A stretch of 64,000 nt of DNA, taken from the NCBI RefSeq assembly GCF_028768465.1, contig NZ_CP118225.1:2089001-2153000 (forward strand), read 5' to 3'. Position numbers and translations under genes: made by a program. This document shows, piece by piece, positions 3,659-25,904 of the stretch (its first letter is position 1; every line of letters starts with the position of its first letter). The notes below the pieces were generated by a model, which ran no database searches, was not told the origin of the DNA, and saw only the letters and a list, made by a program, of their open reading frames with translations. The DNA comes from Rhodopirellula sp. P2. Its GTDB lineage: Bacteria > Planctomycetota > Planctomycetia > Pirellulales > Pirellulaceae.

Positions 3659-4996
3659 ATGGTATCGCTTCATTTCAATGGTGCGGCTCAGCCGGGCCTC
3701 CATCTTCGCATTTCTGCCGGAAGCCAGCGATTGGTTGGTGGTGGACTGCTGTGTTTGTTTGCTTGGATGGCAGCCCCCGCCTGGGGGCAGCCCGATTTTG
3801 AGCGGCCTCCGATTGATTACCTCAACGCGGAGGTGAGCGATCCGGTTGCCGAGCTGGCCAAACGCATTGAGGCGGGCGAAGTGGCACTGCAGAGCGACCC
3901 AAAGTTCGGGTACTTGCCATCGGTGCTGGACGCCTTGGAGGTGCCGCTCAGTTCGCAAACGCTGGTGTTTTCGAAGACCAGTTTGCAACTGCACCGGATC
4001 TCGCCGCGGCGGCCCCGAGCGTTGTATTTCAATGACGAGGTCTACGTCGGTTATTGCCAGCATGGTGATGTCTTGGAATTTGCTTCCACGGATGCCAAGC
4101 AGGGCGCGATCTTTTACACGCTGTCTCAATCGATCAAGAAAGAGCCTGAGTTTGTGCGAGACCGAGGGGGGTGTTTGTCGTGCCATGCTTCGTCGCGAAC
4201 ACAGAATGTGCCGGGGTTTTTGGTCCGCAGTGTCTTCGCGGATGCCGCGGGGCGTCCCAAACTGGGCAGTGGGACATTCACCACCGATCACAGCAGCCCT
4301 TTTGATGAGCGCTGGGGTGGTTGGTACGTCACTGGTACCCATGGTTCCATGCGTCACATGGGCAACGTGATTTGCACGGATGAGGCTCACGAACTCGATC
4401 GTGAAAGTGGTGCGAATCAAGACGAGTTGGAGTCTTACTTTCGGACGGAATCGTATCTGACGCCGCACAGCGACATTGTGGCGTTGATGGTGTTGGAGCA
4501 TCAAACGCAGATGCACAACGCGATCACGGCGGCCAATTTCGAAACGCGGCAGGCGCTTCACCAGTCCTATCAAATGAACGAGTTGCTCGAACGCGAGCCT
4601 GGTTTCATCAGCGAGAGCGCCACGCGGCGGATTGAGTCGTCTGCGGACCGGGTGTTGAAGTACCTGTTGATGTGCGACGAGTTCCAGTTGACTGATTCGG
4701 TTGCTGGAACAACCGCCTTTGCCAAGGAATTCGCGTCGCTGGGCCCGCGTGATTCGAAGCAGCGGTCGCTGCGAGATTTCGATTTGGAATCGCGGCTGTT
4801 CCGGTATCCGTGCAGTTACCTGATTTACTCCGATTCCTTTGCGGAGCTGCCCGCTGAAGTGCGTTCACGGGTGCTGGAGAAGCTCAGGGGGATTCTGGAG
4901 GGCGAGGACCAGTCCGAGACCTATCAGCATCTGACCAGCACGATGCGACGGGAGATTCTGGAAATCCTGGAAGCGACGCATTCCGATTTTCAGTGA
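3659..4996 (+). CDS. exported protein with one CxxCH heme-binding motif
   Basis: The 445-residue protein has a hydrophobic segment at about 26-42 (GGGLLCLFAWMAAPAWG), which suits a signal peptide after an unusually long N-terminal region. A shorter start may therefore be used, but no in-frame internal ATG precedes that segment. A single c-type heme motif CLSCH lies at residues 172-176, followed by an HMGN segment that could supply the distal ligand. The rest matches no family I can name. Divergence from a putative Fe-S Rrf2 regulator suggests redox-controlled expression of a periplasmic c-type cytochrome. The heme assignment rests on the motif alone. Confidence 0.7.
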   Translation: MVSLHFNGAAQPGLHLRISAGSQRLVGGGLLCLFAWMAAPAWGQPDFERPPIDYLNAEVSDPVAELAKRIEAGEVALQSDPKFGYLPSVLDALEVPLSSQTLVFSKTSLQLHRISPRRPRALYFNDEVYVGYCQHGDVLEFASTDAKQGAIFYTLSQSIKKEPEFVRDRGGCLSCHASSRTQNVPGFLVRSVFADAAGRPKLGSGTFTTDHSSPFDERWGGWYVTGTHGSMRHMGNVICTDEAHELDRESGANQDELESYFRTESYLTPHSDIVALMVLEHQTQMHNAITAANFETRQALHQSYQMNELLEREPGFISESATRRIESSADRVLKYLLMCDEFQLTDSVAGTTAFAKEFASLGPRDSKQRSLRDFDLESRLFRYPCSYLIYSDSFAELPAEVRSRVLEKLRGILEGEDQSETYQHLTSTMRREILEILEATHSDFQ

Positions 4997-10853: not shown

Positions 10854-10898
10854 GTAGCGGAACTCGCCGTCGTAGCGGAACTCGCCAAGAGTTTCGGC
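10854..10898 (+). repeat. truncated REP (10854-10868) and complete REP (10872-10898)
   Basis: Two forward REP units lie directly after the DUF1499 gene. The first stops after GTAGCGGAACTCGCC. The second is a full 27-mer with stem AACTC, loop GCCAA and stem GAGTT. A third full unit follows exactly 33 bp later and opens the expanded BIME. Confidence 0.85.
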
Positions 10899-10904
10899 AA
10901 TGTC

Positions 10905-11227
10905 GTAGCGGAACTCGCCAAGAGTTTCGGCGTTCGGCGTTCGGCGTTCGGCGTTCGGCGTTCGGCGTTCGGCGTTCGGCGTTCGGCGTTCGGCGTTCGG
11001 CGTTCGGCGTTCGGGCGTTCGGGCGTTCGGGCGTTCGGGCGTTCGGGCGTTCGGGAGTTGGGAGTTGGGAGTTGGGAGTTGGGAGTTGGGAGTTGGGAGT
11101 TGGGAGTTGGGAGTTGGGAGTTGGCGATTGGCGATTGGGCGATTGGGCGATTGGGCGATTGGGCGATTGGGCGATTGGGCGATTGGGCGATTGGGAGTTG
11201 GCCGAAAGTCTTGGCGACTTCCGCTGC
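10905..11227. repeat. BIME with an expanded spacer
   Basis: The forward REP (10905-10931, stem AACTC/GAGTT) and the opposing REP (11201-11227, stem GTC/GAC type in reverse) have the same head-to-head arrangement as the other BIMEs here. The spacer is 269 bp instead of about 12-14 bp and consists wholly of short tandem arrays. A half REP follows at 11228-11248. Confidence 0.85.
10932..11200. repeat. serial 7-mer and 8-mer tandem arrays
   Basis: By direct count there are 11 copies of GTTCGGC (10932-11008), 5 of GTTCGGGC (11009-11048), one GTTCGGGA, 9 of GTTGGGA (11057-11119), two transition units, then 7 of GATTGGGC (11133-11188) and one GATTGGGA. Neighbouring arrays differ by one- or two-base changes, so each could have arisen from the one before. 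The arrays can be read through as repetitive peptides but show no coding features. Confidence 0.93.
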
Positions 11228-11301
11228 GGTCTTGGCGACTTCCGCTACGTTCCCTGTGGGTGAACGACGTTCCCTGCGGTTGGGGGTGATAGAATTTTGG
11301 G

Positions 11302-11895
11302 ATGGACAGGCAACACAAACAGCGGCTGAAACGTCTTGATCCGGAGTCCTATCGCGGGCTTGCTTGGGTCCACTGGACGATGACGATTGAAGGTCGTCGA
11401 ACAGGTTGGTTGGAACCACGTTTCTTGTACAAGTTCCGTGAAGTCCTCGCCCATGCAATGTTTCGTTACCAGTTCGCGTGCCCCATTTTCTGTTTGATGC
11501 CAGACCATGCCCATCTGTTGTGGTGCGGATTGAGTGAAAGTGCTGACCAACGTCTCGCGATGAAGACGGTTCGAAACGATTTGAACTCCTGCTTGAAGCG
11601 AATTGGTTTCGAGTTTCAGCGGCAGCCGTACGATCATGTGCTGCGTGAATCAGAGTGCGAGTGTTCGGCAATCGAAGACGTCGCGGAGTACATCGCTCGC
11701 AACCCCGAACGGAAAGGGCTTGCGCCGGTCGATGGATTTGCAGATTATATCTATACCGGATGCCTGATTCCTGGTTATCCCAACCTCCGATTGTTTGAGC
11801 TGGATAGTTGGGAGATCCTTTGGCGAACTCTCTCGTTTTTAAAACGAACCGAGTGTTTTCGCCGCAATGACCCAAAGTACGCACCGAAAACGTAG
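11302..11895 (+). CDS. REP-associated tyrosine transposase (RAYT, Y1_Tnp/IS200-like)
   Basis: The 197-residue protein has the Y1 HUH nuclease signature. PDHAHLL has His69 and His71, and the catalytic Tyr130 lies in the helix EYIARNPERKGL. Length and motifs match RAYT proteins, single-domain enzymes that nick REP hairpins as single-stranded DNA. The gene lies between a BIME with an expanded spacer upstream and a normal BIME downstream, so its likely substrates are beside it. The stop TAG (11893-11895) lies inside the downstream REP, so the REP supplies the end of the gene. The 3' end (11885-11895) is also included in the adjacent 291-bp duplication. It appears intact. Confidence 0.9.
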   Translation: MDRQHKQRLKRLDPESYRGLAWVHWTMTIEGRRTGWLEPRFLYKFREVLAHAMFRYQFACPIFCLMPDHAHLLWCGLSESADQRLAMKTVRNDLNSCLKRIGFEFQRQPYDHVLRESECECSAIEDVAEYIARNPERKGLAPVDGFADYIYTGCLIPGYPNLRLFELDSWEILWRTLSFLKRTECFRRNDPKYAPKT

Positions 11896-11957
11896 CGGAA
11901 CTCGCCAAGAGTTTCGGCGTTGGGGCTCCGGCCGAAAGTCTTGGCGACTTCCGCTAC
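11892..11957. repeat. BIME downstream of the RAYT gene
   Basis: The forward REP (11892-11918, AACTC-GCCAA-GAGTT) faces an opposing REP (11931-11957, which in REP orientation reads AAGTC-GCCAA-GACTT) across a 12-nt spacer GTTGGGGCTCCG. A half REP follows at 11960-11980. Confidence 0.9.
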
Positions 11958-12025
11958 ACGGTCTTGGCGACTTCCGCTACGGTCTTGGAGGCCCGTCAAG
12001 CGGAACGCTGGGACCAGCGACTTCC

Positions 12026-12175
12026 TCAGCGAGCCACGAATGCGCGGAAGGCTGCGTTCAGCTTTTGAGTCATCGGGCCGGGTTTGCCATCGCCGATGAC
12101 CCGGCCATCGAGCTTGACCGCGGGGATGACTTCGGCGGCGCTGCCGGTCAAGAAACATTCGTCGGCGACAAAGAT
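12026..12175 (-). pseudogene. duplicated 3' fragment of ilvE
   Basis: This minus-strand fragment encodes the last 50 or so residues of the aminotransferase (from FVADECFLTGSAAE to the stop) without the rest of the gene. It is part of the tandem duplication described above, with only two differences from the functional 3' end within the coding part. It has no start or promoter of its own and should be silent. Confidence 0.9.
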
Positions 12176-12182
12176 CGAAAAC

Positions 12183-12281
12183 GTAGCGGAACTCGCCAAG
12201 AGTTTCGGCGATGTCGTAGTGGAACTCGCCAAGAGTTTCGGCGTTGGGGCTCCGGCCGAAAGTCTTGGCGACTTCCGCTAC
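12183..12281. repeat. REP (12183-12209) plus BIME (12216-12281)
   Basis: Two forward REPs in tandem, the second with one change (GTAGTGG), face an opposing REP at 12255-12281 across the same 12-nt spacer as the upstream BIME. This array lies immediately after the ilvE stop codon and may act as its transcription end. Confidence 0.88.
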
Positions 12282-12349
12282 ACGGTCTTGGCGACTTCCG
12301 CTACGGTCTTGGAGGCCCGTCAAGCGGAACGATGGGACCAGCGACTTCC

Positions 12350-13207
12350 TCAGCGAGCCACGAATGCGCGGAAGGCTGCGTTGAGCTTTTGAGTCATCGG
12401 GCCGGGTTTGCCATCGCCGATGACCCGGCCATCGAGTTTGACCGCGGGGATGACTTCGGCGGCGCTGCCGGTCAAGAAACATTCGTCGGCGACAAAGATG
12501 TCGTGACGTGTCATGGCTTCCTCCGCCACTTCGATCCCATTTTCGCGAGCCAGGTCGATCACCGTGTTGCGGGTGATGCCTTCCAGGATTCCCGCGTCGA
12601 TGGGAGGCGTGATCAGGCGACCGCCGCGAACGATGAAGATGTTGTCGCCGGTGCACTCGGCGACTTCGCCTTTGGTGTTCAGCATCACGGCTTCGATGCA
12701 TCCCGCCCGGATGGCTTCGATTTTGGCCATGATGTTGTTGAGGTAGTTCAGCGACTTCACGCGAGGGCTGAGTGCGGCGGGGTGATTGCGGATTGTCGAG
12801 GCCGTGATCAGTTCCAATCCTTCGGTGTAGAATTTCTCGGGATACAGCGAGATTGTGTCCGCGATGATGATCACTTGCGGGTCTTCGCAGGAGAACGGAT
12901 TGAGCCCCAGTTGGTTGCCGCCGCGGGTGACGACCAAGCGAATGTAGCCTTCTGTCAGACCGTTCTTGGCAACGGTTTCGTTCACCGCCGTGGTCAAGGC
13001 ATCGATCTCGATGGGAATGTCCAGCATGATCGCCCGGGCGCTCTCGTAGAGCCGTGTCATGTGGTCCTCGAGGGCGAAGACTTTCCCTGAGTAGATCCGC
13101 ATGCCTTCGAACACGCCGTCACCGTACAGCAGCCCGTGATCGTAAACGCTGATCTTGGCGTCTTCGCGAGAGAAGTATTGCCCGTTGATGTAGATGGCTT
13201 GGGTCAT
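12350..13207 (-). CDS. ilvE: branched-chain amino acid aminotransferase (class IV PLP enzyme)
   Basis: The 285-residue fold-type IV PLP enzyme has the catalytic Lys151 in RVKSLNYLNN, the N-terminal motif VYDHGLLYGDGVFEGMR, and the cofactor-binding segment GEVAECTGDNIFIV followed by TGSAAEV. It interconverts branched-chain amino acids and their 2-oxo acids. D-amino acid and aminodeoxychorismate enzymes share the fold, but the sequence fits IlvE best. The start is the ATG at 13207; codons upstream in the open frame belong to another reading of the fabI region. Its 3' end has been copied into the neighbouring repeat island. fabI lies upstream on the same strand after 79 bp. Confidence 0.92.
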   Translation of the reverse strand: MTQAIYINGQYFSREDAKISVYDHGLLYGDGVFEGMRIYSGKVFALEDHMTRLYESARAIMLDIPIEIDALTTAVNETVAKNGLTEGYIRLVVTRGGNQLGLNPFSCEDPQVIIIADTISLYPEKFYTEGLELITASTIRNHPAALSPRVKSLNYLNNIMAKIEAIRAGCIEAVMLNTKGEVAECTGDNIFIVRGGRLITPPIDAGILEGITRNTVIDLARENGIEVAEEAMTRHDIFVADECFLTGSAAEVIPAVKLDGRVIGDGKPGPMTQKLNAAFRAFVAR

Positions 13208-13286
13208 GCCCGGAAACTCAAAGTTTAAAAGGTGCGATTGGTGTGAAGGCGGCGAATCAAGGGATGTTTCGTTTGCGAGATGGTTC

Positions 13287-14120
13287 TCAGTCGACGGAGG
13301 CGTTCGTGACCGCGCCGACCACTCCCGCATCAAAGTAGTTGATCGACATGCCCGCATCGACCACGATCGATTGAGCGGTGATGCCGCTGCTGCGTGGTGA
13401 CAACAAAAATGCCGCCGTGGACGCGACTTCGTTCGTCGTGACCGCTTCGCCGCGAGGGATGACTTTTTCAGCGTACAGGTACGAATCAACATAGCCGGGG
13501 ATGCCTGCTGAGGCACTGGTTTTTAGCAGGCCTGCCGCGACTGCGTTGAAGCGGACTTGGCTGAACCGGCTGAACGATTTGGTCAGAAAGGCCAGCGATG
13601 ATTCGAGGGCTGCCTTGATTGGTGCCATGAAGCCATAGCTTTCGCTGGCCATTCGCGTGGTGCTGATTCCGATCGTGACCACGCTGGCGTCACTCGCCAA
13701 TCGGTCTTTGATGGCGTTGCAAACCGCGACCAGTGAAAAGGCCGAGATGTCGATCGCTTGAAGGAATTGGCGGCGCGTCGTTTCGTGAAATGGCCGAATG
13801 CCATCGCTGTAATCCGCAAAGGCGATCGCGTGCACCAGTCCGGCGAGCGTCACATTGTCTCGCTCCAGTTCCGCGGCCATCGCGTCAATGTCGGCTTGTT
13901 GTTCGACGTCGCAAACGATCAGGCGGCGGCCAGACAGCAATTTGGCCAAGCTCTCGCGGCGAGCCTCGCTGCGGACGGCGTAAATCACCTCTCCGCCGGC
14001 CTGCTCGATTTGTTTGGCAATCGCAAATGCGACGCTCTTTTTGTTGGCGACGCCCATCACCAGGAAGGTCTTGCCGGTCATCCCCAAGAAGTCGAACCCG
14101 GCGGTGTTTTCGGTGCTCAC
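13287..14120 (-). CDS. fabI: enoyl-[acyl-carrier-protein] reductase (FabI-type SDR)
   Basis: The 277-residue SDR has the FabI-style nucleotide motif ([14 protein letters not shown]) and the catalytic pair Tyr162-x6-Lys169 (YGFMAPIK) followed by AALESS. FabI performs the last reduction of each fatty-acid elongation cycle, using NAD(P)H. The gene overlaps the fabZ stop by 4 bp, so two consecutive steps of the cycle are co-transcribed. The first active-site Tyr of classical FabI, about ten residues before the catalytic Tyr, is not present: the region reads [11 protein letters not shown]. It may be a divergent FabI. Confidence 0.88.
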
Positions 14121-24873: not shown

Positions 24874-25670
24874 AATTGGTAGCGAAAGTCGTCAAGACTT
24901 TCGGCGAATGGTTGTGCAGGCCGAAACTCTTGACGAGTTTCGCTACTGGAGCCTTGAGCTGTCGCGGAATAGGAGTTGAGGGTTGGCTCGATACCGGTGC
25001 GCGTGGCCTCCCCCGGAAATCTCGCTGAACGCTCGCTTTCCGACCCCTCCCGTTTCACGGGCGGGGTTCGCGCGCATCGCCCCGGATGGGGCCGCCGCCA
25101 GTAGCTCGGGGCGGAAGCCCCGAGACTTCTTGGATTTGAGGTGCGATTGGTAGCGAAAGTCGTCAAGACTTTCGATGAACCGTCGTGCAGGCCGAAACTC
25201 TTGACGAGTTTCGCTACTGGAGCCTTGGGCTGTCGCGGAATAGGAGTTGAGGGTTGGTTCGATACCGGTGCGCGTGCCCTCCCCCGGAAATCTCGCTGAA
25301 CGCTCGCTTTCCGACCCCTCCCGTTTCACGGGTGGGGTTCGCGCGCATCGCCCCCAATGGGGCCGCCGCCAGTAGCTCGGGGCGGAAGCCCCGAGACTTC
25401 TTGGATTTGAGGTGCGATTGGTAGCGAAAGTCGTCAAGACTTTCGATGAACCGTCGTGCAAGTCGAAACTCTTGACGAGTTTCGCTACTGGAGACTTGGG
25501 CTGTCGCGGAATACGAGTTGCGGGTTGGCTAGACACCGGTGCGCGTGCCCTCCCCCGGAAATCTCGCTGAACGCTCGCTTTCCGACCCCTCCCGTTTCAC
25601 GGGCGGGGTTCATTGCATCGCCCCGGATGGGGCCGTCGTCAGTAGCTCGGGGCGGAAGCCCCGAGACTGT
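24874..25670. repeat. 271-bp tandem triplication of BIME-containing units
   Basis: Units start at 24874, 25145 and 25416, exactly 271 bp apart; the third diverges after about 255 bp. Each holds a BIME (24879-24946, 25150-25217, 25421-25488), a segment with TCGCTGAACGCTCGCTTTCC, a CCCC-loop-GGGG hairpin and a CTCGGGGC/GCCCCGAG hairpin. In unit 2 the first hairpin loop is CAAT instead of GGAT while its stem is kept. The surrounding 1.09 kb has no credible gene. Confidence 0.92.
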
Positions 25671-25904
25671 TGACGGCGAGCAGGAGGTCGCCCCGGATGG
25701 GGCCGTCGTGGGGATGAGGGATGGAGCCTTGCTCACGCGTCGGGTTTCTATTCGACGGGCTTGGAAGCCGATCGTACGGCGGCGCTCACGTCGGATGGCG
25801 TCATTGAGAAAGTTCCATTGACAATTGACAATTTGAAATGGGTTAGGAGACGTTCGCCCCAGTCGCATTTTTCACTTTGCAGTTGTCGATTTCACTTTTT
25901 CAAT
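25616..25904. repeat. composite dispersed repeat, copy 2
   Basis: This has the same order of modules as 14785-15070: hairpins CCCCGGATGGGG, CTCGGGGC/GCCCCGAG, a second CCCCGGATGGGG, a CTATTCGACGGGCTTGGAAG segment, then the 102-bp inverted-repeat unit (25803-25904). It overlaps the end of the 271-bp triplication, so the two repeat families share modules. It ends 16 bp from the sulfatase stop. Confidence 0.78.

Follow-up and report, generated by a model that had tools for sequence, protein, structure and literature searches.

The 64,000-nt stretch of DNA analysed here (the window; positions 2,089,001-2,153,000 of one 7,291,416-bp contig of Rhodopirellula sp. P2, a genome labelled G000 below) carries a gene for a REP-associated tyrosine transposase (RAYT) of 197 amino acids (11302..11895, + strand; identified with NCBIfam NF047646 and by alignment), which stands between repetitive extragenic palindromes (REPs; 10854-12304). 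As read at 11.3 kb, a REP has the form GTAG + CGGAAxTC-GCCAA-GAxTTTCG, where x is the type-defining letter; the C-type stem is AACTC/GAGTT and the G-type stem AAGTC/GACTT. All six pairs of facing REPs in the window join a C-type to a G-type REP (6/6), as the original prediction had claimed, and every one of these hairpins remains paired, the exchange of C:G for G:C keeping the stem. Direct reading likewise agreed with the loops claimed, GCCAA at 11-12 kb and GTCAA at 25 kb. The elements are REPINs (REP doublets forming hairpins, a kind of bacterial interspersed mosaic element, BIME) of a RAYT system, that is, two GTAG-REPs with their heads outward and a spacer of mostly 14-18 nt.

Upstream of the RAYT gene, a truncated C-type REP (GTAG and half a hairpin; 10854..10868, +, from the sequence) and a C-type REP with GTAG, an 8-bp stem and loop GCCAA (10872..10896, +, from pattern search and sequence) precede pair 1, in which a C-type REP with loop GCCAA (10905..10929, +) faces a G-type REP with head GCAG and the same loop (11203..11227, -); a truncated G-type REP follows (11224..11248, -). 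Pair 1 is not compact, as its spacer holds about 270 bp of tandem repeats (10929..11201; 37.1 copies of 7 bp according to TRF), which on reading are about 37 copies of drifting 7-8 bp units. Pair 2 comprises a C-type left half (11892..11916, +) and a G-type right half (11933..11957, -), both with loop GCCAA, with a truncated G-type REP at 11956..11980 (-). An extra C-type REP (12183..12207, +) then precedes pair 3, made of a C-type left half with GTAGTG (12216..12240, +) and a G-type right half with loop GCCAA (12257..12281, -), and again a truncated G-type REP (12280..12304, -). A tandem duplication of 324 bp (11891..12499; TRF, 98% matches) copies a BIME together with sequence from the 3' end of the neighbouring aminotransferase gene. 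At 25 kb the order is G-type first, all loops being GTCAA: pair 4 at 24879..24903 (+) and 24922..24946 (-), pair 5 at 25150..25174 (+) and 25193..25217 (-), and pair 6 at 25421..25445 (+) and 25464..25488 (-), in one tandem array with a 271-bp period. The 271-bp unit (24879-25700) also carries other short palindromes, for example GCTCGGGGCGGAAGCCCCGAG. Because pairs 2 and 3 occupy the two copies of the tandem duplication and pairs 4-6 one array, the six pairs amount to about three independent cases; thus the six BIMEs of the original prediction stood as unlike pairs, but not as six independent units, nor all as compact ones. With up to 3 mismatches allowed, the C-type pattern gave 21 matches in the window against 5.25 expected and the G-type pattern 31 against 5.26, numbers reached by none of 100 shuffles in either case, although each pattern catches the other type at 2 mismatches.

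We then tabulated facing pairs across the whole genome, as had been proposed with the prediction. By exact facing arms, 59 of 60 pairs were unlike, which rules out random mixing of the stem types; like pairs were not as frequent as unlike ones. The exception, C versus C, adjoins RAYT2 at 245094. Sixty stretches of the genome were fetched and read. As they rest on the C-type sites listed, groups of C-type REPs lacking any G-type partner may have been missed, but the set of facing pairs is complete because all 60 genome-wide pair matches fall inside the fetched stretches. These contain 77 exact C-type and 67 exact G-type cores (the G-type count being 67 genome-wide as well). A 25-base REP model was matched without mismatch by 122 of its 197 hits there, and had no hits in one mononucleotide shuffle of each stretch; 10 of the 197 hits (class TA, RAYT3 family) were left out of the facing-pair count. 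Classified by two variable letters, 79 facing pairs comprised 68 C/G pairs, 4 of C against CAC|GTG, 6 with a damaged half and one C/C pair with a T:G pair beside RAYT2. The start-to-start distance was 39-47 in 78 of the 79, mostly 43 or 41.

The same picture emerged from single REPs. The 77 exact C-type seeds faced a clean G-type half in 54 cases, a damaged G-type half in 4, an ambiguous half in 1, CAC|GTG in 4, CTT|GAG in 1 and nothing in 13; the 67 exact G-type seeds faced a clean C-type half in 53 cases, a damaged one in 7 and nothing in 7. No exact seed, C-type or G-type, was opposite a clean half of the same type. At 1817, 2037 and 5235 kb, where one half alone has expanded in tandem, the array is closed by a single partner of the other type. 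Further dispersed stem types were sought at stem pairs 6 and 7 and rejected: other letters at pair 6 occurred at 11 places, with none for the reversed control, and at pair 7 at 17 places, with 8 for the control. We read these places as mostly chance or degenerate REPs plus a CAC|GTG array at 243-244 kb. Among the sites listed, REP clusters appear dense at about 0.6-2.3 Mb and near 5.2-5.4 Mb and sparse elsewhere on the contig.

We searched 60 related genomes with the pattern CAAGASTT-N(5-35)-AASTCTTG. It occurred at 329 places in 24 of the 60 genomes, compared with 15 for the reversed-pattern control (genomes with one to four places possibly hold chance matches only), and 301 of the 329 places were unlike; this rules out an artefact confined to the window. 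Like pairs were then sought in 12 of the genomes, where unlike places made up 279 of 297. Of the 18 like-armed places located, 17 were read (G012:C446 was left out), and in five of these both hairpins were intact and their stems identical. RAYT2 of G009 accounts for three of the five and G004 for two, one of the latter differing in a loop letter. The other 12 were the G000 pair near RAYT2 and 11 places with a damaged half or without REPs. The two G004 like pairs (L157 and L161; G004:C9 237931 and 239080) lie 1.1 kb apart, and tblastn of the window RAYT (P0001) on 3 kb at these places gave a best E of 1.2. Pairs were exclusively unlike in G001 (8/8), G010 (25/25) and G018 (11/11), three genomes in which no RAYT match was found at E 1e-10, suggesting that their REP families are relics. 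Unlike pairing is thus real and strict in these mobile repeats, which are of a known kind; within the lineage it is widespread though not universal.

Pairing at RAYT genes themselves was read at 55 loci, 44 in a first set and 11 held out. Facing REPs were unlike at 35 loci and like at 10, which rules out strict universality of unlike pairing; the remaining 10 loci had no facing GTAG hairpins. The 35 unlike loci differ by stem in 33 cases and by loop in 2, a few of them only across the gene. The three RAYTs of G000 illustrate the different ways in which unlikeness is made: partners differ at stem pair 6 for RAYT1 and at pair 7 for RAYT2, and those of RAYT3 have a common stem with loops of different length (GCCAA versus GCCA). 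At the RAYT3 loci of G000 and G003, the gccaa loop faced the gcca loop in 9/9 close pairs. A second REP family, with CCGGATTC stems, was seen at L043 and L039 (RAYT3 loci) and at L095, L098 and L104. The first 44 loci gave 25 pair designs, of which 22 differ in the stem, 1 in loop length and 2 are like. On a tree of 33 RAYTs (designs labelled by hand, L041 left out), at least 19 changes of design and at least 3 changes between the like and unlike states are required. At L145, a C-to-G swap at pair 6 is found inside a mostly like-paired stem group, and near-identical RAYT2 genes stand beside C/CAC pairs in G000 and beside C/C pairs in G009. RAYTs on plasmids, sought as an outside sample, gave no match; a search of a genome-contig database returned 2 RAYT relatives.

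The differences between partners are not spread evenly along the stem. Across the 25 designs, 6 of the 40 letter differences between the two 5' arms fell in pairs 1-4 and the other 34 in pairs 5-8 (1, 2, 0, 3, 9, 16, 5 and 4 for pairs 1 to 8), pair 6 being the commonest site (16/40). Differences between designs, in contrast, numbered 1075 in pairs 1-4 and 997 in pairs 5-8 (p 1.7e-6 for the contrast, with designs that are not independent). Partners therefore share a family-specific basal stem and differ from each other near the loop. If a REP were to pair with the inverted REP (iREP) on the same strand, one swap at pair 6 would leave a longest uninterrupted duplex of 9 of 25, the least possible, compared with 11, 10, 11 and 19 after a swap at pairs 5, 7, 8 and 1. 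For the 22 stem-unlike designs (the two like designs and RAYT3 being left out), the mean longest run was 8.55, whereas random placement gave 10.26 (p 0.0015); when the set was reduced to 17 designs, the corresponding means were 8.47 and 9.86 (p 0.017).

The expectations 'mostly unlike' and 'near the loop' were set before the 11 further loci were read. Six of these had GTAG hairpins, and facing REPs were unlike at 3 of 5, so that the first expectation was barely borne out. Among the unlike loci, L165 was judged by eye from REPs facing across the gene; the others were L167 and L168, which also holds a like pair; at L166 and L175 the stems are alike save a wobble, and L174 is one-stranded. The second expectation held more weakly than in the first set: 5 of the 7 differing letters lay near the loop, as did all five of the full pair changes.

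Unlike REP pairing as a phenomenon is already known. Di Nocera et al. 2013 (PMC3733652), in the part of the paper available to us, reported REP 'heterodimers' with unlike stems as having 'no obvious explanation', described their preferential formation in most REP families, suggested that they escape enzymatic degradation and named R. baltica as a host of more than one REP family. Their GTAG superfamily has the same GTAG head, short stem and loop, and heads-out dimers, and in several families the partners have different stems (compared here by description, not by consensus sequences). The elements of G000 belong with it: an unpaired GTAG (or near) head lies directly 5' of a short palindrome in high copy number, two inverted REPs and a short spacer form a repeated unit (79 facing pairs), and partners differ in stem and/or loop, both in 59/60 pairs of the genome and in the survey of RAYT loci. 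What we add is the recurrence of unlike pairs across RAYT loci in different designs, the shared base with a differing tip, and the duplex-run argument, which do not appear in the available text of PMC3733652. In the open-licence literature, searched by title and the start of the abstract, no paper on a pair rule for planctomycete REPs was found.

Other REP systems resemble the present one in part, as far as the accessible text of the papers goes. In Pseudomonas fluorescens SBW25 (Bertels and Rainey 2011, PMC3116915), REPINs also consist of two inverted REPs with a less conserved spacer and are tied to a RAYT, but the GI REPINs are described as symmetric (palindromic) and folding to one long hairpin, whereas the ends here are unlike by compensatory change and the long hairpin, in the folding model described below, is weakened yet favoured on average. 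BIMEs of E. coli (y with z1 or z2) are likewise mosaics of two REP types (PMC8266576); there, however, the REP stem is bulged and the length varies with the type (y 35, z1 29 and z2 37 nt), whereas stems here are regular, a single base pair setting the two types apart. The TnpAREP/REP systems of group 3 (S. maltophilia Sm, Marinomonas Mb; PMC8266576) share the perfect-palindrome REP, GTAG and small loop, a likeness in REP form. In Stenotrophomonas BIMEs, modified REPs keep their palindromes, 'suggesting selection for complementary mutations' (PMC2817692).

What might the unlikeness do? According to the available part of PMC8266576, RAYT binds and processes the folded REP and not the iREP, and the mechanism of REP dissemination is still to be elucidated; a 'clover' fold has been proposed as the recognised or mobile form, the long hairpin being less likely to be recognised (PMC3116915, likewise seen in part). 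A strand of a REPIN carries a REP and an iREP, and exact inverted copies could close up as a single long hairpin in which GTAG pairs with CTAC. We tentatively favour, as an explanation that has not far from an even chance of being right, that the stem difference hinders this foldback and so leaves both hairpins, each with its GTAG, accessible to RAYT. The GTAG head, the basal stem and in most cases the loop are common to the two REPs, and would presumably be read by the same RAYT on either strand; the compensatory swap near the loop lets each half retain its own hairpin and adds two mismatches to the long REP:iREP foldback open to the same strand. The swap may thereby lower the chance that a single-stranded REPIN zips into one long hairpin burying GTAG, so that the two-hairpin ('clover') form, which RAYT could bind and cut, would stay accessible longer and should also be a poorer substrate for palindrome nucleases. 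Unlike pairs would then be those that spread and persist. Unlike pairing, retention of the hairpins, conservation of both types against spacer drift, the recurrence of differently made unlike pairs and the location of the difference near the tip are observed directly; that selection acted to avoid foldback, and that RAYT mobilises the units, we infer.

Two analyses of G000 bear on this explanation. From the 79 pairs, 55 units were drawn (one per array for six arrays, spacing <=60), of which 49 entered the conservation set, by spacer length, and 43 the folding set, by exact type letters. Between copies, identity was 90-93% in C halves, 90-94% in G halves, 48% in spacers and 29-35% in outer flanks; the type-defining bases were 96-98% conserved, comparable to the GTAG head (90-100%). 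Folding of single-stranded DNA was modelled with DNA parameters at 25 C without G:T pairs. The long hairpin was favoured by 9.3 kcal/mol in natural units, compared with 17.5 in like pairs made in silico, and the two local hairpins were unaffected by the like or unlike state. In the model, therefore, the swap halves the bias towards the long hairpin without abolishing the preference.

Several observations weigh against foldback avoidance. At equilibrium, natural units in the model still prefer the long hairpin (mean -23.5 versus -14.2 kcal/mol), and the energy penalty is 7.0-9.4 kcal/mol across pairs 1-8, pair 6 not being singled out. This similarity rules out equilibrium thermodynamics as the cause of the preference for pair 6, and the position rule, if real, points instead to duplex-run length, acting through kinetics or enzymes. 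The pair 6 peak was seen before testing and is thus post hoc, the designs are related by descent, and in the held-out loci 2 of 7 letters fell at pair 4, a weaker result than in the first set. The identities between copies are too high in absolute terms, as the seeds favoured intact REPs, although partner type was unselected. Of the 45 RAYT loci where REPs face each other, 10 have like pairs, and seven of these 10 belong to the TGGATCT stem group; RAYT2 of G009 has like pairs in 3/3 cases, G004 has two pairs of the same G-type stems, and at least 3 of the 35 unlike loci also carry a like or nearly like pair (L028, L037 and L168). Finally, RAYT3 pairs differ by a single loop base, which should hardly be an obstacle to foldback. 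Even so, we rank the hindrance of foldback as the most likely explanation, with drift of an unread stem tip as its main rival and fixed roles of the two ends as less likely.

In the rival account based on inheritance and tolerance, one unlike founder pair per family was copied whole, RAYT reads the head, base and loop, and the unread tip drifts, the compensatory change merely keeping the hairpin and the unlikeness having no function. Copying of whole units is indeed seen from spacer families and partly shared flanks, and tandem arrays copy a pair at 3753, 1410 and 1907 kb. A location near the tip is also what would be expected if RAYT ignores the tip, and like pairs are tolerated beside RAYT genes. 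A free tip should vary among copies, yet it is as conserved as the head, with spacers at 48% (figures subject to the seed bias), and between families pairs 5-6 vary about as much as the basal pairs 2-4. Unlike designs, moreover, recur in different ways on the RAYT tree, and the uninterrupted run is shorter than random even when placement is restricted to pairs 5-8 (0/20000 in one test; p 0.0003), although some real designs also use basal pairs. We regard drift with tolerance as rather unlikely, while taking it seriously.

A third possibility, the separate end roles raised by the original prediction, is that the two tips are distinct signals and RAYT handles C-type and G-type ends differently. 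IS200/IS605 transposases treat their two ends in this way. The units are oriented, spacer and flanks being asymmetric relative to C and G, and where a RAYT gene has unlike pairs to its left and right, which is so at 23 loci, the order of the pair is the same on both sides in 19; in the 4 reversed loci, 3 depend on a damaged, near-like or mis-called hairpin. This kept polarity fits an oriented unit, but it fits tandem copying as well. Relative to the gene, the order flips between relatives, with the C-type first in L027, L029, L126 and L127 and the G-type first in L025 and L031; as families also vary in design, it is the difference that is kept, with no fixed left or right identity. Like pairs at RAYT loci speak against distinct ends too, and since the iREP is on the strand opposite the REP and RAYT is reported to act on the REP only (PMC8266576, available part), a strand shows RAYT one end at a time. 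Separate end roles thus appear improbable. That two separate hairpins in a transcript serve the host better than one long endoribonuclease substrate is very improbable, since the GTAG head, needless for a transcript hairpin, is as conserved as the stem, although it has been suggested that RNA cleavage might account for homo- and heterodimers (PMC3733652, available part).

Returning to the hindrance of foldback, a stronger form of it would hold that unlike pairing is a recurrently evolved, selected 'anti-zipper', with a shared base for recognition and a difference at the part of the tip that best breaks the REP:iREP duplex, so that a switch of one base pair would set the folded state and the mobility of the unit. 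We consider this form doubtful, though still conceivable. The same-base, different-tip rule makes both the 2013 puzzle of unlike REP dimers and the mechanism of REP dissemination testable: swapping one base pair would give a like pair whose main departure from the natural pair is in foldback, and natural controls exist in the RAYT2 genes beside C/CAC and C/C pairs and in the stem group with like pairs.

The window RAYT matches NCBIfam NF047646 with 39.5 bits (E 4.8e-10), short of the cut-off of 80, and had no match in Pfam or in a PDB sequence search. H69, H71 and Y130 are invariant among 10 aligned RAYTs; we take the two histidines to be the HUH motif and Y130 the catalytic tyrosine of the Y1 family. 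Its neighbours are a DUF1499 gene on one side and a class IV aminotransferase gene (12350-13516; Aminotran_4 match) on the other, and both flanks match those of RAYT loci in G003, a genome of the same genus, and in G004. REPs with the GCCAA loop are also dispersed in G000, for example at 1004218, 1697818 and 5287397.

Some REPINs, among them L102 around 6427417 and L097 around 5287397, sit in a longer repeat that begins TGGTSYGT about 25 bp before the first GTAG (about 15 of the 55 units). Left flanks fitted TGGTSYGTNAMAGCT with up to 3 mismatches in 15/55 units and in 0/55 shuffled ones, the motif having been derived from the same flanks. A matching arm on the other side (at least 11 of 15 pairs) was present in 4/55, a number reached by 50 of 2000 permutations, so that a complete miniature inverted-repeat transposable element (MITE) around the pairs is only partly supported. 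In several units CTAG lies outside the longer repeat. L102 closes with TGACGCACCA-ctag, which matches the TGGTGCGTCA with which it opens, in the manner of MITE-like terminal inverted repeats.

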